Of a stretch of DNA of 38,509 nt, positions 7,756 through 38,509 are shown in pieces. Within the stretch, counting starts at the first letter, position 1. Every line of letters starts with the position of its first letter. This DNA comes from Candidatus Omnitrophota bacterium (GTDB taxonomy: Bacteria > Omnitrophota > Gorgyraeia > Zapsychrales > Zapsychraceae), in assembly GCA_029261065.1 (NCBI GenBank), contig JAJDCB010000027.1:1-38509 (forward strand). Reading direction: 5' to 3'. The notes beneath the pieces were generated by a model that saw only the letters and a program-made list of their open reading frames with translations, did not search any database and was not told the origin of the DNA. A program made the translations under genes and the position numbers.

Positions 7756-7817
7756 CGAAGTGTTATTTTCTTGTATTTTAAATTTCATACTATAAAGATT
7801 ATTTCTTGGAAATCTAA

Positions 7818-8037
7818 ATGGGTAACCTAGAGGCTAAAAGAGGTTGTCATGCTCAAACATCCTTCGCTCGATAGCTTTTTTTTATTAAGGGGCAAAACCA
7901 TATGATCACAAGAGCGAGTTTGTCGCAAAGCGACGTTGTTTGAGCGAATGATCATATGGTTTTGCCTCTTAATTGATTGTAAGCTATCGGCTGCGGAACT
8001 GCGCGTGACAACCTCTTTTAGCCTCTAGGTTACCCAT
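7818..8037. repeat. Long palindromic element 1 (220 bp) between ftsL and ftsI
   Basis: The ends are a perfect 32-bp inverted repeat (7818-7849 and 8006-8037, core CCTAGAGGCT). Inside is a second inverted pair (CAAAACCATATGATCA with its complement) and an innermost GTCGC/GCGAC hairpin in a loop containing GCTCAAACAACGTCGC (minus strand). No gene is encoded. It belongs to a family with 12696-12935, which has the same layout in the opposite orientation, and shares loop sequence with 16477-16603. It could fold into one tall hairpin in the operon transcript. Confidence 0.92.
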
Positions 8038-8066
8038 GTAAAGCTTTAAAACATCATAAAAATATT

Positions 8067-9743: not shown

Positions 9744-9787
9744 CCATCGAATCGTTAACGCGGACGGGTGTAGAACCCGCCCCTTAT

Positions 9788-11322: not shown

Positions 11323-12677
11323 CATTACAAGAAATTATCTCCTCAACAGACGCTAAGCTTATCTTAAGCGGGTGCGATTGTGATTCATCTACCTTTGTCT
11401 TAAAAGGTGTATCTACCGACACAAGGACCATTAAGAAAAATGATATCTTTGTTGCCATTAAGGGGCCGAACTTTGATGGGCATCAATTTATTAGTCAAGC
11501 GATACGGGCTGGAGCGAAAGCCGTTGTGGTCTCAAAGCGTGTAGCAACCAAGTGTGATGTTCCTCTTCTAAAAGTTTTAGATACAACAGAAGCTTTAGGA
11601 TTAATGGCTAGATGTTATCGTCAAAAGTTTTCTATTCCTGTGATTGCCATTACAGGAAGTGCGGGGAAGACCACAACAAAAGATATGATAGGTTTGGTCT
11701 TATCGCAGAAATATAAGGTTTTAAAAAATGTTAAAACAGAAAACAATCAGTATGGTGTTCCTTTAACACTATTTAAGTTAAAAAAATCTCATGAAGTAAT
11801 CGTGTTAGAGCTGGGGACGAATCAAAAAGGGGATATTGCGTGGTTAGCAAAAATTTGTCAGCCAACGGTTGCTGTTTTTACGAATATTGGTGAGTCTCAT
11901 CTGGCAGGTTTAAAAAACGCTTATGGGGTTTTTTGTGAAAAGGCACAATTAATTAAGGGGATGAGTAAAGGAACTGTGATTTTTAACAAAGATGACCCTT
12001 ATTTAAGTAAATTGTCTTTACGTGCAAAAGGCTTAAAAAAGTTAAGCTATAGCTTAAAATCACGATCAAACCTTCAGGCAAAAAATATTTTGTCAAATCA
12101 GCAGAAATTGAGTTTTTCAGTAGGGCGTAACCATTTCCAACTAAATACGTTAGCAAAGCACAACATTGCGAACGCATTAGCTGCAATTTCCTGTGGTCGG
12201 TTATTTAATATTAGTTATAATAATATTAATAAAGCGCTTAAGAAAAAGCCATTTGATCAAGGTCGGCAGCAGTTAAAACGTATCTCTGGGATGTGGGTGA
12301 TTGATGATACGTATAACTGTAATCCTGTTTCATTAGTGAGTGCTATTCAATCCTTAACAGACTTTGAAAACAAGGGCCGCAAAATATTGGTTTGTTCAGA
12401 TATGTTAGAGTTAGGGCCAAAATCAATAGAGTTGCATCAATCGATGGGCCGGCTAATTGGGCGCTCCTCAATTGATTGTTGCGTAACAACAGGCCAGGCA
12501 TCCAAACATATTTCTTCTGCTTTACGCCGTTCTAATTCCACAATTGAAAATCATCACTATACATCACAAGAAGATGTTCAAAGTTTTTTAAAGAAGTTTT
12601 GTCAAGCGGGTGATGCCTTGTTGGTAAAGGGTTCAAGAGGGATGAGGATGGAACGCGTTGTCAATTCATTAAAATGA
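11316..12677 (+). CDS. murF: UDP-MurNAc-tripeptide:D-Ala-D-Ala ligase MurF
   Basis: The 453-residue protein adds the D-Ala-D-Ala dipeptide, completing UDP-MurNAc-pentapeptide. Visible features are the N-terminal substrate domain (GVSTDTRTIKKNDIFVAIKG), the ATP site ITGSAGKTTTKDM with K118, the NNQYGVPLTLF motif typical of MurF, and DDTYNCNPVS followed by the C-terminal domain. Length is normal. It overlaps murE by seven bases. The downstream gap to mraY is filled by palindromic element 2. Confidence 0.96.
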   Translation: MLTLQEIISSTDAKLILSGCDCDSSTFVLKGVSTDTRTIKKNDIFVAIKGPNFDGHQFISQAIRAGAKAVVVSKRVATKCDVPLLKVLDTTEALGLMARCYRQKFSIPVIAITGSAGKTTTKDMIGLVLSQKYKVLKNVKTENNQYGVPLTLFKLKKSHEVIVLELGTNQKGDIAWLAKICQPTVAVFTNIGESHLAGLKNAYGVFCEKAQLIKGMSKGTVIFNKDDPYLSKLSLRAKGLKKLSYSLKSRSNLQAKNILSNQQKLSFSVGRNHFQLNTLAKHNIANALAAISCGRLFNISYNNINKALKKKPFDQGRQQLKRISGMWVIDDTYNCNPVSLVSAIQSLTDFENKGRKILVCSDMLELGPKSIELHQSMGRLIGRSSIDCCVTTGQASKHISSALRRSNSTIENHHYTSQEDVQSFLKKFCQAGDALLVKGSRGMRMERVVNSLK

Positions 12678-12695
12678 AGTTCTTTGGAAGTTTAG

Positions 12696-12935
12696 GTGAG
12701 TACCCTAGAGGCTGAGAAATTTTGTCACGCGCAGTTCCGAAGCCGATAGCTTACAATAGATTGATGGACAAGACATATGATCATTCGCTTCAGACAGTCC
12801 TCGCTACGCATTTTTCTAAAAATTGCTTGCTGCGGAACTCGCTCAATGATCATATGTCTTGTCCACCAATAGAAAAAGCTATCGAGCGAAGGTTGTTTGA
12901 GCATGGCAGAATTTCTCAGCCTCTAGGGTACTCAC
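12696..12935. repeat. Long palindromic element 2 (240 bp) between murF and mraY
   Basis: The terminal arms 12696-12727 and 12904-12935 pair at 30 of 32 positions, and the two exceptions are G.T wobbles. An inner inverted pair (GGACAAGACATATGATCA and its complement) surrounds a loop. The element has the same layout as element 1 in reverse orientation, with block GCTCAAACA(A/T)CCTTCGCTCG on one shoulder and CGCGCAGTTCCG on the other. Eight arm positions differ from element 1, and each is matched on the opposite arm. A 77-codon open frame across it is a by-product of the palindrome. Confidence 0.92.
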
Positions 12936-12986
12936 TGAAGATTTCAAAGACATAAAAAAAGTTAACAAGAAAGTTCATTTATACCC

Positions 12987-14075
12987 ATGCTATATTATCT
13001 CTCCGAGTTGCGTGATGTTTTCTCCAGTTTAAATATTTTTCGTTATATTACTTTCCGTGCCGGGATGGCGGTTGTTACAACTTTTTTGATATGTGTTGTT
13101 TTTGGTCCGTGGGTGATTAAGAAGTTAAGGCAGATGAAAGTTCAAGAAGTTGCAAAAAGAGCGGATTGTCCGGATTTAGATCAGTTTCAACATTCTAAAG
13201 AAGGAACGCCGACGATGGGTGGGGTATTTGTTATTGGTAGTATTGTCATGACTGTTTTGTTTTGGGCTGATTTGACCAATAGATATATCTTGCTTACGCT
13301 TTTGACAGGTGTCTGGTTGGCGGTTTTAGGTTTTGTTGATGATTACATGAAGTTGACCCGAAAAGGGGGCAAGAGGGGGATATCCAAGCGAACAAAATTA
13401 ATTTGGCAAATTTTGCTTGGATTTTTTATTGGGTCTTATGTTTATTATGATCCTTCTGTTTCAAACAAACTCGATTTACCTTTCTTTAAAGAGTATCTCT
13501 TAGATATAGGAATTTTTTATATTCCCTTTGTGGCCTTAATTATTATTGGTTCTTCAAATGCCGTTAATCTAACGGACGGTCTTGATGGTTTAGCTATTGG
13601 TTGTGTTTTGATTGTAAGCATCACATTAGGGGTTTTAAGTTATATCACCGGTCATTTTGAAATGAGTCAGTATCTTTATATTCCGTTTGTTTCAGGTTCC
13701 GGAGAATTGGCTATTGTGTGTGCGGCTATTTTAGGGGCGAGTCTCGGATTTCTTTGGTTTAATTGTCATCCAGCGAGCGTCTTTATGGGAGATGTTGGTT
13801 CGCTTTCTCTTGGAGGGATGTTGGGCGCGATGTCGATATTTATAAAAAAAGAATTGTTGCTAGCCTTGTTAGGCGGGATTTTTGTTATTGAGGCGGTTTC
13901 TGTTATCTTACAAGTTTATTCGGTTCGATATCGGGGAAAAAAGCTTTTTAAGATCGCACCTATTCATCATCATTTCCAAATGTGCGGATGGCATGAATCA
14001 AAAATCATTATTCGATTTTGGATCATCGCGATTATTTTTGCGTTATTAACTTTAACCTCTTTAAAGGTTCGTTGA
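12987..14075 (+). CDS. mraY: Phospho-MurNAc-pentapeptide translocase MraY
   Basis: The 362-residue protein has about ten membrane segments and makes lipid I from UDP-MurNAc-pentapeptide and undecaprenyl phosphate. Conserved loops are present: EGTPTMGGVF, FVDDYMKL with the DD pair, NLTDGLDGLA, the NCHPASVFMGDVGSLSLGG block, and PIHHHFQMCGW with the HHH motif. It is complete and of normal length. It follows palindromic element 2 by 51 bases. The tail overlaps murD by one base (TGATG), so the two are likely coupled. Confidence 0.96.
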   Translation: MLYYLSELRDVFSSLNIFRYITFRAGMAVVTTFLICVVFGPWVIKKLRQMKVQEVAKRADCPDLDQFQHSKEGTPTMGGVFVIGSIVMTVLFWADLTNRYILLTLLTGVWLAVLGFVDDYMKLTRKGGKRGISKRTKLIWQILLGFFIGSYVYYDPSVSNKLDLPFFKEYLLDIGIFYIPFVALIIIGSSNAVNLTDGLDGLAIGCVLIVSITLGVLSYITGHFEMSQYLYIPFVSGSGELAIVCAAILGASLGFLWFNCHPASVFMGDVGSLSLGGMLGAMSIFIKKELLLALLGGIFVIEAVSVILQVYSVRYRGKKLFKIAPIHHHFQMCGWHESKIIIRFWIIAIIFALLTLTSLKVR

Positions 14076-15364
14076 TGCTCGATATTAAAGGAAAGACAAT
14101 ATCTATTTTAGGGCTTCAACGCAGTGGTTTGGCTGCAGCACAATTGGCTTTGAAGCTTGGGGGCTCTCCTAAATTATCTGATCTAAGCCCTTCTGATAAA
14201 TGTCCACCTGAAACGTTGCGTTGGATTAAAGAGAATAACATTCCCGTGGCCTTTGATGGACATCCGCGCAATTTTATTGAAGGCAGTGATGTGATTGTGT
14301 TGAGCCCCGGGGTTCGTCACGACTGTGCTCCTGTTCAATTGGCTCGATCGCTTGGTATTCTTGTTTTAGGCGAGATAGAATTTGCTTTTCAATTTTGTCA
14401 GGCGCCTGTTATTGCTGTCACAGGAAGCAATGGAAAGACGACTGTCGTCACGTTGATGGATTTGGTCTTGGAACGAGCCGGTTTTAAGAGTGCTTTATGT
14501 GGCAATGTCGGAATGCCTTTTTCAAATTATGTGACAGAAGCATACGATTATATTGTTTTAGAAGTCAGTTCGTTTCAATTGGAAAGTATGTTAGATGTAT
14601 CGCAATATAAAAACAAGGAATGGAAAGGCTTTAAACCGCATGTGGCAGCCCTTTTAAATTTTAGTCAAAATCATTTAGATCGTCATTCGGATCTTAACGA
14701 ATACCTGCATGCCAAGCTTCGTATTTTTGAAAATCAAGATAAAGGTGATTTTACTGTTTTGAATGCTCAAAATTCTCATTTAAAAAATCATCTAAAAGAC
14801 AGTACCGCGCAAATTTCTTTTTTTAATAATTTTCCAAATGACGAATTTCCCCACAATCAAAATTTTTCAGCTGTTTCGCAAATGGCCAATATTTTAGGCA
14901 TTTCAAAACAGATATGTGAGGATGTCTTTGCGAGTTTTAGTGGTGTCGAACATCGCATGGAACGCGTGCGTACGATTAACGGTATTGACTTTGTTAATGA
15001 TTCCAAATCCACAACAACAGAAGCCAGTCAGTGGGCCTTAAACAATATTCAACAACCCATCCACATGATCTGCGGCGGCCGCGATAAAAATTTAGATTTC
15101 TCAACCCTCTCTGAGATTGTTAAACAAAAAGTTTCTAAGATGTATGTCTATGGTGAGGCCAAAGAAAAGATACGAGACGCCTACAAAAACATCATAGACA
15201 TCGAAGAGTTTTCAGCCCTAAACGAAGCCGTTGCCAAAGCCAGACATTCCGCCAAAGAGGGAGACTGCGTTATCCTATCTCCGATGTGCGCCAGTTTCGA
15301 CATGTTCAAAGATTATGAGGAGCGGGGGCGGGTTTTTAAGGAAATTGTTGAGAAATTGACATAA
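14075..15364 (+). CDS. murD: UDP-MurNAc-L-alanine:D-glutamate ligase MurD
   Basis: The 429-residue cytoplasmic ligase adds D-Glu. It shows the N-terminal Rossmann domain (KTISILGLQRSGLAAAQLA), a P-loop GSNGKTTVVT with K121, LEVSSFQLE, a LNFSQNHLDRH motif, and a C-terminal domain with NDSKSTTTEAS and ICGGRDKNLD. The ATG at 14075 is preferred over an upstream start at 14018, because MLDIKGKTI is the normal N-terminus and it overlaps the mraY stop by one base. Codons in about 15040-15310 are markedly C-rich compared with the rest. The last 48 bp recur at 16413-16460 after the next gene. Confidence 0.95.
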   Translation: MLDIKGKTISILGLQRSGLAAAQLALKLGGSPKLSDLSPSDKCPPETLRWIKENNIPVAFDGHPRNFIEGSDVIVLSPGVRHDCAPVQLARSLGILVLGEIEFAFQFCQAPVIAVTGSNGKTTVVTLMDLVLERAGFKSALCGNVGMPFSNYVTEAYDYIVLEVSSFQLESMLDVSQYKNKEWKGFKPHVAALLNFSQNHLDRHSDLNEYLHAKLRIFENQDKGDFTVLNAQNSHLKNHLKDSTAQISFFNNFPNDEFPHNQNFSAVSQMANILGISKQICEDVFASFSGVEHRMERVRTINGIDFVNDSKSTTTEASQWALNNIQQPIHMICGGRDKNLDFSTLSEIVKQKVSKMYVYGEAKEKIRDAYKNIIDIEEFSALNEAVAKARHSAKEGDCVILSPMCASFDMFKDYEERGRVFKEIVEKLT

Positions 15365-15380
15365 AATTGCGAAATAGATT

Positions 15381-16373
15381 ATGACAAATAAAACGAAAAA
15401 TATAGAGACATCTAAAGGGCAAGTTGTTTTATATAAGAATAAATTTGAAGTCAAGTTTGAGCAGGAAACGGTATGGCTTAATCAAAAGCAAATGGCCGAG
15501 TTATTTCAGAAAGATTTAAGAACGGTCAATGAACATATATATAACGTTTACCAGGAGAAAGAGTTACAGAAATCTACAACTATCCGGAAATCCCGGATAG
15601 TTCAAAAAGAAGGAAAACGAGAGGTTACAAGAAATATTGAATTTTATAACCTTGATGTCATTATTTCGGTGGGGTACAGGATTAAATCTAAACAAGGGAC
15701 ACAATTTCGAATTTGGGCTACGAATGTACTCAGGAAACATTTAGTTGATGGATACACAATTAACGAAAAAAGACTTAAAATTGAACAGCATAAATATCAA
15801 GAATTGCAGAAATCCATTAGTTTGCTTGGTAATGTTACAAAATTATCATCAATTTCAGATGATGCAAGAGGGCTAATTCAAATCATTACAGAATACACCA
15901 AAGCACTAGATATTTTGGATGATTTTGATCATAAGAAACTATTAGTTCCTAAGGGAACAAAGAAAGCCAAGTTTGAATTGTCCTATGATGAAGCAAGAAA
16001 AGTTATTGAGGCTATGAAAAAGAAGTTTAAAGATTCTGATCTTGTAGGACAGGAGAAGGACAAAAGTTTCAAAAGTTCCATTGGGGCAATATATCAAACA
16101 TTTGGTAAAAAGGATGTTTATCCAACGGTTGAAGAAAAAGCGGCGCATTTATTATATTTTGTAACCAAGAATCATAGTTTTGTAGATGGTAACAAACGCA
16201 TCGCAGCGGCACTATTCGTTTGCTTTTTGCAGAAAAACGGTATTATCCTTCGCAAAAATGGAGAGAAGCGGATAGATAATAATACATTGGTTGCATTAAC
16301 ACTGATGGTTGCGGCAAGCAAGCCCGTAGAGAAAGATATGTTGATTAAAGTAATTTTAAATTTACTAAAATAA
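15381..16373 (+). CDS. RhuM-Fic/Doc fusion protein
   Basis: The 330-residue protein has an N-terminal RhuM (virulence protein) domain with the WLNQKQMAELFQKDLRTVNEHI DNA-binding-like helices and FYNLDVIISVGYRIKSKQGTQFRIWAT. A C-terminal Fic/Doc-type domain follows, with motif HSFVDGNKR at 265-273 (H265, D269, N271, R273), matching HxFx(D/E)GNxR. Fic-domain proteins transfer AMP, phosphate or other groups to targets; this fusion is widespread, is often found in mobile islands, and its target is unknown. Here it sits 16 bases after murD and is followed by a second copy of the murD 3' end, so it is probably an insertion. No antitoxin motif (S/T)xxxE(G/N) is obvious. Confidence 0.88.
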   Translation: MTNKTKNIETSKGQVVLYKNKFEVKFEQETVWLNQKQMAELFQKDLRTVNEHIYNVYQEKELQKSTTIRKSRIVQKEGKREVTRNIEFYNLDVIISVGYRIKSKQGTQFRIWATNVLRKHLVDGYTINEKRLKIEQHKYQELQKSISLLGNVTKLSSISDDARGLIQIITEYTKALDILDDFDHKKLLVPKGTKKAKFELSYDEARKVIEAMKKKFKDSDLVGQEKDKSFKSSIGAIYQTFGKKDVYPTVEEKAAHLLYFVTKNHSFVDGNKRIAAALFVCFLQKNGIILRKNGEKRIDNNTLVALTLMVAASKPVEKDMLIKVILNLLK

Positions 16374-16412: not shown

Positions 16413-16460
16413 GAAGAGCGGGGGCGGGTATTTAAGGATATTGTTGAGAAGTTGACATAG
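16413..16460 (+). pseudogene. Duplicated 3' end of murD
   Basis: This 48-bp stretch matches 15317-15364 with five mismatches and encodes EERGRVFKDIVEKLT plus a stop, against EERGRVFKEIVEKLT in murD. The changes are synonymous except for one conservative E/D, so both copies were evolving as coding sequence. There is no start or other part of murD here. The two copies flank the RhuM-Fic gene as direct repeats. Confidence 0.9.
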
Positions 16461-16476: not shown

Positions 16477-16603
16477 ATCCCAATCTTGTGATTTTATAAT
16501 TTTGTACCGTAAGATATTTCAAGCTCAAACAACTCCGCTTCGCTACGTAACTCGCGTGAAATATCTTACGGTACAAAATTATAGTGAATTACAAAACTGG
16601 GAT
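16477..16603. repeat. Long palindromic element 3 (127 bp)
   Basis: Arms of about 45 bases (16477-16521 and 16557-16603) share the inner 27 bases exactly (core TTGTACCGTAAGATATTTCA) and are imperfect further out. The loop at 16522-16556 contains GCTCAAACAACTCCGCTTCG and AACTCGC, nearly the same as the loop of element 1, although the stems are unrelated. No gene is encoded. Confidence 0.9.
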
Positions 16604-17565: not shown

Positions 17566-17576
17566 AACAGTGAGTA

Positions 17577-34200: not shown

Positions 34201-37053
34201 GAATTTGAAGTGAAAGATTATTACACGCCTAATATGTTTCTTAACGCGGTATCGGCTGAAAATTATCAGCTAAAACTTCATAACTTAAGTTTAATCGTGC
34301 CACCGGATGAAAAGTTTTTAAATATCAAAATTATCTCTGACAAAGAAACTTATTCTCCCGGGGAAGAAGGAAATTTTGAGATCGAGTTAACAGATAAAAA
34401 TGGTGATCCCGTGCAAGGCGAGATGTCTTTAGGTTTGGTCGATGCTAGTGTCTATTACATTCAATCAGAGTTGGCGAAAGATATTCGTGAATTTTTCTAC
34501 GGGAAGAAGCGTGCGCATTCCGTGCAAACGCAAGCCTCGTTTCATCAACGGAGTTATCAGAGGTTTGATTTGTTTAAGCGTGATAATAATGGGGAAGATG
34601 ATCTTGATGAAAAGGAAGGAAATAAGCGGGTAGGTGGATATCAGGCGCGAGTAATGTATGGCAAGGGAATGGTCGCTCAAGAGATGTTGGCATCCGCACC
34701 TATCATGGCAGATTCGATAGAAGAATCCTTTAGGAGCGATGGTAGGTTCGGAAATCGTCTTGAACAGAAAAAACGGTCAGGAGATAAGTTGTCGAAATCA
34801 AAATCAGAAATAGGCGGGGAAGATGCTGATCTTGATAGCCCGAAAGTCCGACAAGATTTTCGCTCAACGATTATCTGGCAACCAACTCTTATCACAGATG
34901 AAAATGGTCGCGCACACATTAAGGTAACATTCCCCGATTCACTAACAACATGGAAAACAACCGCGCGCTCAATAACCCAACACACACAAGTCGGTACTGT
35001 CACCCATGAGGTTAAAACAAAAAAAGATATCATCGTCCGTTTACAAGCCCCACGGTTTTTTACAGAACGGGATGAAGTTGTTATATCAGCCAATGTGCAC
35101 AATTACACTGATGAAGAGAAAAAAATTAAAGTGACAATCAAAGCGGATGGGCTTGATTTAAAAGATAAAGCATCACTTTGGATTAATGTAGCCGCCCAAG
35201 GTGAGCAACGTGTGGATTGGAAAACGATTGCCGTCTCTCAAGGAATGGCCAACATCACCGTCATGGCGCAAACCGAAAAAGATTCTGATGCGATGGTTAA
35301 ATCATATCCGGTTATTCCTCACGGGATTGAAAAATTTTTAGCGCAATCGCTTGAATTAAAATCACAAGGTCTTGAATCATTTCAATTTGATGTTCCAAGA
35401 GAACGCATCAAAGAATCAACGTCTCTGCAAATTAATCTGTCACCGTCGCTTGCCGGGGCCATGTTAGATGCGCTTCCCTATTTAGCGCAATACCCTTATG
35501 GTTGTGTCGAGCAGACAATGAGTCGTTTTTTACCAGCGATCATTGTTCGAAAGACGTTACGTGAATTAGGATTAAGTCAAAGGGAAGTCAGCCAGTACAT
35601 CAATAACGTTCTTATTCCTCGTGAAGACCCCGAAGGCCATCCCAAACGTAGCTCGCAGGCTACGTTATCGGAATTAAACAAAATGACCAACTCCGGTTTA
35701 GATCGTATTTACGATTTTCAACATAGTGATGGAGGTTGGGGGTGGTGGAAAGAGGGAAGAAGTGATCGGTTTATGAGTGCTTATGTAGTTTGGGGTTTAA
35801 GTTTGGCGAAAGATGCGGGTATGAAAATTAAGGGTAATGCCTATAGTCGAGGGATTGATTATCTAAAAAAAGAATTAGTTGAGGAGGAAGATAATCCTGA
35901 CATGTTAGCGTGGATGCTTCATGCTTTGGCGGCAACAAAATCAAGAGGTGAGTTTCAAGATAAGCAATCAACACGTTTGTGGGATATGCGTGAGGAACTT
36001 AATCCTTACACGCGAGCGTTATTTGCTTTGGCAGAACATTATCATGGGAATAAAGATCGTGCTTTGGTTTTGGCGCGTAATTTGGCCAATGGCATGAATG
36101 AACAACAAAGCAATAACACCGTTTATTGGGGTGAGTCGGGCGTTCATTATCGTTGGAGTGAGGGTGGTGTTGAGGCCACAGCGTTTGTGATTAAAGCCCT
36201 CTCGAACATCATGCCTGATAGCGAATTGATTGCTCCCGCCGTCCGTTGGATGGCGTTAAACCGACGAGGCGCGCGTTGGAAAAATACAAGAGATACCGCG
36301 ATTGCCATCTTAGGATTAGCAGATTACCTTAAAACAACTAACGAATTAACACCGGACTTTGAATATCAAGTGACGGTGAACGGAAAACAAGTTCAGACGG
36401 GTCACGTGGATCGCAAAAACTTATTTTCATTTAACCGCATCATCCAACTGGATGCCGAGAGTATCAAAAATGGTAACAATCAGGTTGAAGTGAAGTTGCA
36501 AGGCGCAGGTGCGCTTTATGTTTCTGGGTATCTCAAATATTTCACCTTAGAAGAGAACATCTCGGCTGAAGGCAACGAAGTTTATGTCACAAGAAAATAT
36601 TACAAACAAAGCACCAAACCAACCTTACTTAAAGGCTATTCCGAAGATTGGAAGCTTATCAAATCAGGTGCTGAGATTAAGAGTGGCGATCGTATTCGTG
36701 TTGAGATCTTATTGGATTCCAAAAATAACTACGAATACTTAATCGTCGAAGATTATAAACCCGCAGGACTCGAAGCCGTAGAACTTAAAAGCGGCTCCAC
36801 CTACGCCGAGCAACTCGATTACAAGGGACGCGACACCAATCATCGCACCTGGGTCTATCAAGAACTCCGCGATCAAAAAGCCGTCTTCTTCGTCGACAAA
36901 CTCAAAACCGGCCAACACCGCCTCCGCTACGAACTCCGCGCCGAAATCCCCGGCACCTTCCACGGCATGCCCAACCAAACGCATGCGATGTACGTCCCGG
37001 AGATTCGGGCGAATAGTTCGGAGGTTGTGGTGAGTGTTAGGGATAAACAGTGA
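31285..37053 (+). CDS. Bacterial alpha-2-macroglobulin with thioester
   Basis: This very large protein (1922 residues) has a signal peptide (FIFAFSVMLMLAGSSPLFAQ, no lipobox). Then come an N-terminal helical, TPR-like region (to about 320), a long series of MG domains, and an acidic, Lys- and Ser-rich low-complexity stretch at about 1094-1190 that fits a bait region. The A2M signature follows (TIIWQPTLITDENGRAHIKV, FPDSLTTWKTTARSIT), then a thioester domain with GCVEQ (Cys about 1407, Gln about 1410). Family members trap attacking proteases in the periplasm by bait cleavage and covalent thioester capture. The ATG at 31285 is chosen over a TTG at 31270 for its ribosome-binding site (GGAG, 9 bases upstream) and its fit to the signal peptide. 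The usual pbpC partner is absent. Codons in about 36745-36990 are strongly C-rich. Confidence 0.94.
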   Translation: MKHFIFAFSVMLMLAGSSPLFAQTKIQTQSIEQADQLRDEKSFQQAAAIYKNVLKDSELSPSLIKELQFKWADASWRSGVANNYEDAVKMLQEVVAGEDHERWWAEGHESLAEHFIKVDRYSHQNEIKQSLEHARGYWAGSSDIELARSRFIKVSFTLGEFISQHWGWVYRDLKPTKMYHGNILPDDPNRNGLQILYEEILEVAKSDEDRARVYYSLAMSYYHNYNHPEKRKLTKKYFNKIIKDFPESEWLDDAYYYLGQNFEQNNELKKAVKVYQDFLKRYGKGESKWVNDASRRLAYIIAPQLSVSSSYTFVPDSDIQFNMSWRNISEANISLYDINLLDHLVFDQTKSNTDSKRGVNNYQDILKRVVESNKHRSLKKVMNWKVALKDEGNYQHYSENKSLAHWLVKNKNEVDPKKSKLKPGAYLLLAESGDQKAFDLVLVTDLGVVSKTAGNTGLIFAFDSKTGAPLPSTDVKYQYRYHDDTGNWQWVQEQGQTDEEGLLKINFKNGENRNYGKQHQLFVTLKNDDMQAFVQGNYYAHYGQNNQWWFYAYTDRPAYRPTEEVSFKGVLRNYQDKGFETPSFKRVKALVYDARGNKVMEKVYSLNEFGSFNDKFNLDEKATLGEYRLELYTEEGNTHLGQAVLFRLEEYKLPEFLVDITPKKEEGQTLTYQLGDTIDIELNAEYYFGGGVSNAEVEYLVYQSPYYHYYYPMQKYPWYYDQLNPSHRSQYYNKQLITQETIKTDEHGKAFFNFQSPENGSQDLIYHIEARVVDQSRREIRANATIKVTKQGFYAYLKPKQNLYRPGDRAEVDIKTLTANNEPIAVDGKVTVSRHWWKQAVIHNEKTTHPAQYDKTELFTKFAKTNELGEVVFAFEPDQDGYYIVEFTGFDAKGQEVKSQTNVFVCATSSKDIGFQYNGLQIISEKETYAVGEIARVMLVANKPDTWVLFSQEADEIFDYKMLHLDGNVKLVEFEVKDYYTPNMFLNAVSAENYQLKLHNLSLIVPPDEKFLNIKIISDKETYSPGEEGNFEIELTDKNGDPVQGEMSLGLVDASVYYIQSELAKDIREFFYGKKRAHSVQTQASFHQRSYQRFDLFKRDNNGEDDLDEKEGNKRVGGYQARVMYGKGMVAQEMLASAPIMADSIEESFRSDGRFGNRLEQKKRSGDKLSKSKSEIGGEDADLDSPKVRQDFRSTIIWQPTLITDENGRAHIKVTFPDSLTTWKTTARSITQHTQVGTVTHEVKTKKDIIVRLQAPRFFTERDEVVISANVHNYTDEEKKIKVTIKADGLDLKDKASLWINVAAQGEQRVDWKTIAVSQGMANITVMAQTEKDSDAMVKSYPVIPHGIEKFLAQSLELKSQGLESFQFDVPRERIKESTSLQINLSPSLAGAMLDALPYLAQYPYGCVEQTMSRFLPAIIVRKTLRELGLSQREVSQYINNVLIPREDPEGHPKRSSQATLSELNKMTNSGLDRIYDFQHSDGGWGWWKEGRSDRFMSAYVVWGLSLAKDAGMKIKGNAYSRGIDYLKKELVEEEDNPDMLAWMLHALAATKSRGEFQDKQSTRLWDMREELNPYTRALFALAEHYHGNKDRALVLARNLANGMNEQQSNNTVYWGESGVHYRWSEGGVEATAFVIKALSNIMPDSELIAPAVRWMALNRRGARWKNTRDTAIAILGLADYLKTTNELTPDFEYQVTVNGKQVQTGHVDRKNLFSFNRIIQLDAESIKNGNNQVEVKLQGAGALYVSGYLKYFTLEENISAEGNEVYVTRKYYKQSTKPTLLKGYSEDWKLIKSGAEIKSGDRIRVEILLDSKNNYEYLIVEDYKPAGLEAVELKSGSTYAEQLDYKGRDTNHRTWVYQELRDQKAVFFVDKLKTGQHRLRYELRAEIPGTFHGMPNQTHAMYVPEIRANSSEVVVSVRDKQ

Positions 37054-37143
37054 CAGGCACGAATAACGGGCATGGGCAGGAATAAACAGTGACAGGCACG
37101 AATAACAGGCATGGATCAAAAAATCGTGCCTGTCACTAATTAT
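37042..37143. repeat. RAYT-type repeat cluster (GTGACAGGCAC)
   Basis: Two direct copies of AAACAGTGACAGGCACGAAT (37044 and 37083) are followed by the inverted GTGCCTGTCAC (37126-37136). The stop codon of the alpha-2-macroglobulin is the TGA inside the first copy. The same sequence pair brackets the leader of the RAYT gene at 37591-37768. The hairpin could also end the upstream transcript. Confidence 0.82.
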
Positions 37144-37186
37144 CCCTGTTGAATAATCATCGTAAGGCATCTAAAAGGAAAGAAGA

Positions 37187-37582: not shown

Positions 37583-37590
37583 AGGTAAAG

Positions 37591-37768
37591 AATAAACAGT
37601 GACAGGCATCAAATAATCAAAAATTTGACAAGATTTTTTAAATAGCTATAATAAACCAAATCAAATAATCCCCCCCGCTTAAAAAACTCCCCCACTATAA
37701 TAAATCCCCCGTGATAGGGTGTAAATTGGTAACGAGAAAACCAATAAATCGTGCCTGTCACTAATTAT
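37591..37768. repeat. RAYT-type repeat pair flanking the RAYT leader
   Basis: AATAAACAGTGACAGGCA (37591-37608) faces AAATCGTGCCTGTCACTAAT (37746-37765) in inverted orientation, 137 bases apart. In REP systems the RAYT gene is typically bordered by its own repeats, which supports these as its substrates. Three C-runs of five to seven lie between them (from 37670, 37689 and 37706), of unknown meaning. Confidence 0.8.
37625..37652 (+). promoter_or_regulatory. Consensus promoter of the RAYT gene
   Basis: A perfect TTGACA (37625-37630), a 16-bp spacer and a perfect TATAAT (37647-37652) lie within the repeat pair. Transcription would start near 37659, leaving a leader of about 130 bases that contains the inverted GTGCCTGTCAC. 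Confidence 0.8.
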
Positions 37769-37790
37769 AATTCCCCCCAACAAGGACAAC

Positions 37791-38509
37791 ATGCCAAGAA
37801 AAGCAAGAATAATTGTCGCAGGAGAGTTGTATCATATTACTCAAAGAGGAAATTATCGTCAGAATATTTACGATGAGGATAATGACAAGATACAATATCT
37901 GAAGTATTTTGAAAAATATAGCCAACAGTTCGGGTTGGATGTGTTTGCTTATTGTTTAATGAATAATCATATCCATTTTATAGTTCGCCCGTTAAATAAA
38001 GAATCGATGGCGCAAACAATATGTCGGGCTCATCAAAGATATTCGGTTTATTATAATGCTAAGAATAAAAGGAGTGGGCATTTGTGGCAAGAACGCTTTT
38101 ATTCATGTTTGCTCCAAGGAAATCATATAAAGCAGGCGGTTAGATATGTTGAATGTAATCCGGTGAGAGCGGGAATAGTCGCCAAGCCATGGCAATATGG
38201 ATTCTCAACGGCGCGAGCCCATTTAGGGCGGCAATATAAAATAATTACATTGGCCGATATCTTTGAATGTATTGATGTTGATTCATGGAAAGATTATCTT
38301 CTTGAAAGAGAAGATGAAGATCTGCATGCGCGAATAAGGAAAGCTACGATGAAGGGGCTTGTGTTAGGATCAGATGATTATATTCGAGAAATTGAACAAA
38401 GATTAGGCCGAACCCTAATCAAAGTGCGAGGAAGACCGAAAAATGGTGCCAATGGTATGGACGACCACGCAATTTTACACCGCCTGTATGGTGAACAACT
38501 CAAGGGCAA
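37791..38509 (+). CDS. REP-associated tyrosine transposase (RAYT, Y1_Tnp/HUH), cut by window end
   Basis: At least 239 codons are open to the end of the window. The N-terminus is PRKARIIVAGELYHITQRGN. The HUH motif appears as NNHIHFIVRP, and the catalytic tyrosine region as RYVECNPVRAGIVAKPW, with GHLWQERFYS between; this is the standard Y1_Tnp layout. After about residue 160 a C-terminal extension continues (REIEQRLGRTLIKVRGRPKN), as in longer members of the family. RAYTs nick and rejoin REP sequences as single-stranded DNA. The gene has its own promoter and a ribosome-binding site (AAGGA, 10 bases upstream). Confidence 0.94.
   Translation, partial: MPRKARIIVAGELYHITQRGNYRQNIYDEDNDKIQYLKYFEKYSQQFGLDVFAYCLMNNHIHFIVRPLNKESMAQTICRAHQRYSVYYNAKNKRSGHLWQERFYSCLLQGNHIKQAVRYVECNPVRAGIVAKPWQYGFSTARAHLGRQYKIITLADIFECIDVDSWKDYLLEREDEDLHARIRKATMKGLVLGSDDYIREIEQRLGRTLIKVRGRPKNGANGMDDHAILHRLYGEQLKG

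Follow-up and report, generated by a model that had tools for sequence, protein, structure and literature searches.

The elements reported here come closest to three described kinds of sequence. Bacterial MITEs resemble them in being short and without an ORF, in having terminal inverted repeats, in lying between genes, in duplicating a fixed 8 bp of target and in leaving internally deleted derivatives that retain both ends. Palindromes just 3' of coding regions are also found as REP and REPIN sequences, and Y1 genes occur in both genomes considered here. Y1 transposition is not known to produce a target duplication of fixed length. The ends of GTAG REPs may supply a stop codon (PMC3733652), as GTAA may do at element ends in one of our genomes. 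Finally, template switching is reported to create and maintain perfect hairpins (PMC8794818), and these share with the present elements mirrored multi-base changes and perfect stems. We found no description of this element family in the open-access literature.

The window analysed here, meaning the whole stretch of 38,509 nt, belongs to an Omnitrophota genome available as a 2.7-Mb draft (G000). Comparison of sequences indicates that the palindrome called element 2 is an insertion between murF and mraY, two cell-wall genes, at the murF stop codon, because the murF-mraY spacers of relatives are short and because a target duplication is present in the sequence. The spacer measures 309 nt at this locus and 2-200 nt (median 12) in 20 relatives that have both genes in place; once the element and one target copy are subtracted, 26 nt remain. 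The duplication is imperfect, and its left and right copies match at 6 of 8 positions. A preliminary description of the palindrome had given it the bounds 12696-12935, which are slightly short, since terminal repeats (AGTTCTTTGG/TTCAAAGACA) and target duplications place the ends at 12678-12952. The main context of element 2, absent from the earlier account, is mobility: the unit was inserted and carries 8-bp target duplications. Its parts are as follows.

12678..12952, minus strand: element 2, composite palindromic insertion of 275 bp, with the GCTCAAAC orientation on the minus strand
12670..12677, no strand: left copy of the 8-bp target duplication, TAAAATGA, containing the murF stop codon
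12953..12960, no strand: right copy of the 8-bp target duplication, TAAAAAAA
12698..12727, plus strand: left arm of the outer stem, a block in step with the right arm (own-arm identity.918 vs.70 between copies)
12904..12933, minus strand: right arm of the outer stem (own-arm identity.918 vs.70 between copies)
12728..12759, plus strand: left shoulder, within the conserved asymmetric core, GCGCAGTTCCGAAGCCGATAGCTT side, conserved across composite copies
12871..12903, plus strand: right shoulder, within the conserved core, CGAGCGAAGGTTGTTTGAGC, conserved across composite copies
12761..12783, plus strand: left arm of the inner stem, TTGATGGACAAGACATATGATCA; 13 of 23 pairs with two-sided change and 0 with one-sided change (11 copies)
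12847..12869, minus strand: right arm of the inner stem, with the same 11-copy pair tally as the left arm
12784..12846, plus strand: inner loop, a second core copy in the opposite orientation, TTCGCTTCAGACAGTCCTCGC...GCGGAACTCGCTC, the core being as in the singleton loops

The architecture of element 2 is thus that of two nested hairpins about an asymmetric conserved core, with no ORF of at least 80 aa inside it. A related element, element 1, lies between a 129-aa ORF that follows a MraW-family gene and a penicillin-binding protein gene.

7800..8055, plus strand: element 1, of the family of element 2 in opposite orientation
7792..7799, no strand: left target duplication of element 1, ATAAAGAT, matching the right copy at 7 of 8 positions
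8056..8063, no strand: right target duplication of element 1, ATAAAAAT

Direct reading of the sequence bears out the first claims made for the pair: element 2 (12696-12935) is built like element 1 (7815-8040) but runs the other way, and wherever their outer arms differ, at eight positions, the partner arm carries the corresponding change. Element 2 has two non-Watson-Crick positions, both T.G, and the inner stem is altered on both sides (GGCAAAACC vs GGACAAGAC), also as described before. When folded as single-stranded DNA, both elements are far more stable than shuffles, the two values being -73.2 kcal/mol (z -13.2) and -78.7 kcal/mol (z -12.8).

The whole of G000 holds eight composite copies of about 240-330 bp with outer ends of the GGCTCTTTGAAGTATT type, four inner hairpins that stand alone, and about eight singletons, hairpins with only the loop in common with the rest. 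The 8-mers flanking the outer elements agree at.85, compared with.53 after permutation (reached in 4 of 2000 permutations, n=6), and a width of 8 is the only one that stands out. A stop codon lies within 18 nt of seven of the eight composite copies, which show no strand bias. Two composites only (L003, ~1685-1725, and L008, ~1390-1435) carry a third small hairpin of ~36 nt (GAAATAAGCAA...TTGCTTATTTC) in the shoulder, apparently a nested insertion.

Other repeats were also seen. Another inverted-repeat element, in which GCAAGAATAACCAAG ends enclose a centre of 168-210 nt, occurs at L216:7725-7942 and L233:13844-14103, and L033 carries a tandem repeat of ~35 nt (GCTGTGACGCTGTTTATTTGAGTACTCAAAAAAAGA) from ~1600, near the contig end. 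Repeats of TGTCATTCCCGCGAAAGCGGGAATCC, which are common elsewhere in the genome and often form inverted pairs, are dispersed at window positions 9787, 25280, 27786, 29889 and 30026, and three copies of a 103-nt direct repeat lie between consecutive genes at 17573, 18421 and 19024. A 47-nt direct repeat (91%) joins 15317-15363, the end of ORF 14018-15364, with 16413-16459, just past a RhuM/Fic-domain gene (15381-16373), as if this gene had been inserted with duplication of the 3' end of the gene upstream.

For every copy, we scored the identity between its own two arms and the identity of each arm to its counterparts on that side in the other copies; the outer arms were read by hand and checked against the sequence. 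Own-arm identity was.918 in the outer block, compared with.699/.712 for the same side (n=8), and.972 in the inner stem, compared with.748/.762 (n=12); none of 2000 permutations reached either result. Within the inner stem (11 copies), two-sided change affected 13 of 23 pairs and one-sided change affected none; 98% of the 253 cells were paired, five were unpaired, and neither a one-sided standard pair nor a G-U pair was found among them. The covariation score was 0.503, as against 0.134 +/- 0.024 in shuffled alignments, none of 500 reaching it. An alignment of all copies in the genome therefore supports the matching of arm changes far beyond chance (0/2000 permutations; covariation 0/500), and a single recent duplication of one arm does not account for these changes. 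The statement that pairing was kept while the sequence drifted holds for the outer block and the inner stem; it fails for the outermost ~18 nt, where the arms are out of step (own-copy identity 0.58, other-copy 0.59-0.61).

The kinds of change are also informative. Mirrored changes between copies comprised 104 transversions and 49 transitions in a tally over copy pairs, in which events are not independent, and the excess of transversions was present in close copies as well. This ratio is close to the 2:1 that plain copying of a random new base onto the other arm would give. Mismatches between arms were about equal by kind (G.T 8, A.C 9, transversion 10), and the lengths of the arms shift in step.

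A second family around the same core occurs in a related Omnitrophota genome, again a draft assembly (G054), as ~40 copies of a 120-bp element with ends GTAACCGGTGAGTTACTG and the core at its centre. Its 8-bp target duplications match at.79 vs.31, again with width 8 alone standing out, and internally deleted derivatives (L196-L198) retain both the ends and the target duplications. The element starts a median of ~10 nt past a stop codon or itself provides TAA, and the GCTCAAAC strand is the coding strand in 19 of 19 tandem-gene contexts (p = 4e-6). Arms of one copy again agree in the distal 23-27 nt (.902, vs.745/.751 for the same side; 0/5000 permutations, n=25). Arm lengths, which shift in step here too, were equal within 19 of the 25 copies, where 7.2 were expected (maximum 17), and the terminal repeat showed 31 mirrored changes vs 4.5 expected. 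Mirroring is confined to this outer, loop-distal half of the stem. Over the loop-proximal 19 nt the arms of one copy are hardly more alike than those of different copies (own.779, other-copy.769, same side.887/.865), so the two arms there are inherited separately, with no homogenisation. Distal mismatches were G.T in 18 cases, A.C in 14 and transversions in 20, whereas the proximal ones are mostly of one kind (92 vs 10), an A.C on one strand that is a G.U on the other.

Together, these results indicate that element 2 is probably a non-autonomous miniature inverted-repeat mobile element, the arms of which evolve in concert by DNA-level copying between them. The element inserted at the murF stop codon with duplication of 8 bp of target, and the terminal repeats and 8-bp duplications suggest a transposase that acts in trans. 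In spreading lineages, changes in one arm, transversions and length changes included, would be copied into the other by DNA synthesis or repair with the opposite arm of the hairpin as template; candidate routes are template switching in replication and, in an extruded hairpin or cruciform, mismatch repair. After insertion, copies would decay one-sidedly. We infer the copying step and its timing from the pattern of changes alone. Copying between arms, or hairpin repair, explains the mirrored transversions, the mirrored length changes and the sharp boundaries of the mirrored blocks; the loop-proximal 19 nt of the G054 stem imply that it must differ between parts of the stem. For the template-switch hairpins the process is described in the history of RNA genes such as those for rRNA and microRNA, whereas the present case would involve a mobile family with dispersed copies. 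Misassembly of palindromes is an unlikely cause of the pattern, though both genomes are drafts, because the same pattern recurs in a second, independent assembly and the target duplications are intact in both.

With regard to the source of mobility, both families have the terminal inverted repeats, the 8-bp target duplication and the insufficient coding length of a MITE. They differ from bacterial MITEs in that the fast-changing, mirrored part is the terminal repeat in G054 and the stem block in G000, while the loop core is conserved and common to families with unrelated ends, and in that no parent insertion sequence was found. A search of both genomes detected no insertion sequence with the same ends, an absence that is weak in drafts. 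The element ends presumably resemble those of ISL3, and the ends of the G054 family those of IS66. Derivation from ISL3 or, for the G054 family, from IS66 was guessed from these ends and the 8-bp duplication and was rejected, as the corresponding transposases (PF01610 and PF03050) are absent from both G000 and G054. In G054, no long-spaced pair of terminal repeats brackets a transposase gene; one candidate, C118, with terminal repeats ~1.8 kb apart, encloses ordinary genes.

A link to RAYT genes was likewise rejected. Y1 genes are present (PF01797, five matches in each genome), but the core does not occur in the loci around them. The elements are also unlike REPs and REPINs in their 8-bp target duplications, which are of fixed length, in their stems of 20-50 bp and in having no GTAG/CGTC tag at the ends. 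The window itself contains a Y1 (IS200-like, RAYT-type) transposase gene at 37785-38507, which runs to the contig end, and upstream of it TCGTGCCTGTCACTAATTAT / ATAAACAGTGACAGGCA palindromic repeats (37039-37148, ~37590-37608 and ~37749-37768); gene and repeats are likely a REP-RAYT pair.

As an alternative to arm-to-arm copying, the element may be mobile and its folded DNA hairpin, a cruciform or single-stranded transposition substrate, may be kept by selection for recognition by a protein, with active copies compensating changes one by one. The conservation of an asymmetric core between unrelated stems is what one expects of a recognised structure, and the mismatch counts in G000 fit this as well, given that G.T has no advantage over A.C in DNA pairing. 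Compensation of this kind, however, needs mismatched or bulged intermediates, and among the 253 inner-stem cells we found 0 one-sided standard pairs and only 5 unpaired cells. Furthermore, arm lengths shift in step in most copies, and neither the outermost 18 nt in G000 nor the loop-proximal 19 nt in G054 are kept paired. We therefore regard this alternative as unlikely.

The loop core raises another alternative. This asymmetric sequence of ~35 nt, GCTCAAACAAC...GnAACTsGC, sits in stems of unrelated sequence in G000 and G054, and these were the only two of 384 sampled genomes of the phylum to contain it (at most 2 mismatches); it was absent from the other 382. Matches from a GTDB pattern scan outside Omnitrophota lacked a surrounding hairpin and appear to be coincidental or to lie in coding sequence, and no relatives of the element were found in phages, plasmids or IMG/VR. 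One singleton palindrome with the core lies in the window.

16495..16583, plus strand: singleton palindrome with the same loop core and unrelated arms; 30-nt arms 97% complementary; loop GCTCAAACAACTCCGCTTCGCTACGTAACTCGC

A 26-nt stretch of its arm occurs only in its own two places in G000 and nowhere in G054 at up to 3 mismatches. The core may thus seed palindromes, with fold-back synthesis copying one flank into the other, so that arms arise from arbitrary local sequence; palindromes that capture a transposon end would become mobile families. The ~8 singletons of G000 and 6 of G054 agree with this proposal, in that they share the core and ~8-10 adjacent nt only, their arms of 20-50 nt being otherwise unrelated. 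The same applies to the long palindromes with unique arms in a 438-kb sample, to which the survey of palindromes without the core was limited: nearly all bear it. An inherited proximal part and a mirrored distal part, as in G054, are what fold-back priming from a short proximal stem predicts. On the other hand, singleton L030 has a target duplication matching at 7 of 8 positions precisely at its ends, like an ordinary insertion, and the arms of the G054 singletons resemble one another to some extent beyond the core, so that some may be diverged relatives. We consider such seeding rather improbable.

The preliminary description had left two possibilities: that selection acts on a fold, of RNA or of single-stranded DNA, or that one arm is rewritten from the other. 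DNA-level copying is favoured, and selection on an RNA fold is disfavoured by the pattern of change: stepwise compensation in RNA would be expected to leave G-U pairs behind and to favour transitions, and G000 shows neither, the inner stem having no one-sided or G-U pair, even mismatch kinds, an excess of transversions and arm lengths in step. It is very unlikely that selection keeps the stems paired as a structured RNA, for instance a 3'-UTR hairpin, even though the G054 element lies just past stop codons in one orientation and has proximal mismatches that read as G.U on one strand, since that strand is the untranscribed one in 19 of 19 contexts, the distal mismatches of G054 are of mixed kinds, the G000 composites have no strand bias, an Rfam scan at the gathering score gave 0 matches, and 0 intrinsic terminators (a GC-rich hairpin followed by a T run) were found in 12600-13050, in and around element 2. 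One-sided changes in the G054 terminal repeat, read on the transcribed strand, were G-T in 17 cases and A-C in 6, which hints at a possible small role for RNA pairing.

The conserved core links palindromes with unrelated arms. If it does seed palindromes, it would be a source of new MITE families, making new inverted-repeat elements with arms kept identical from arbitrary flanks. With its dispersed copies, the family also offers natural material from which one could measure how fast, and in which direction, one arm is copied onto the other. Matched changes in stems usually count as the strongest sign of a functional RNA; in this family the signal is very strong, but its details point to DNA copying. 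Covariation tests on mobile palindromes could therefore mislead RNA discovery.
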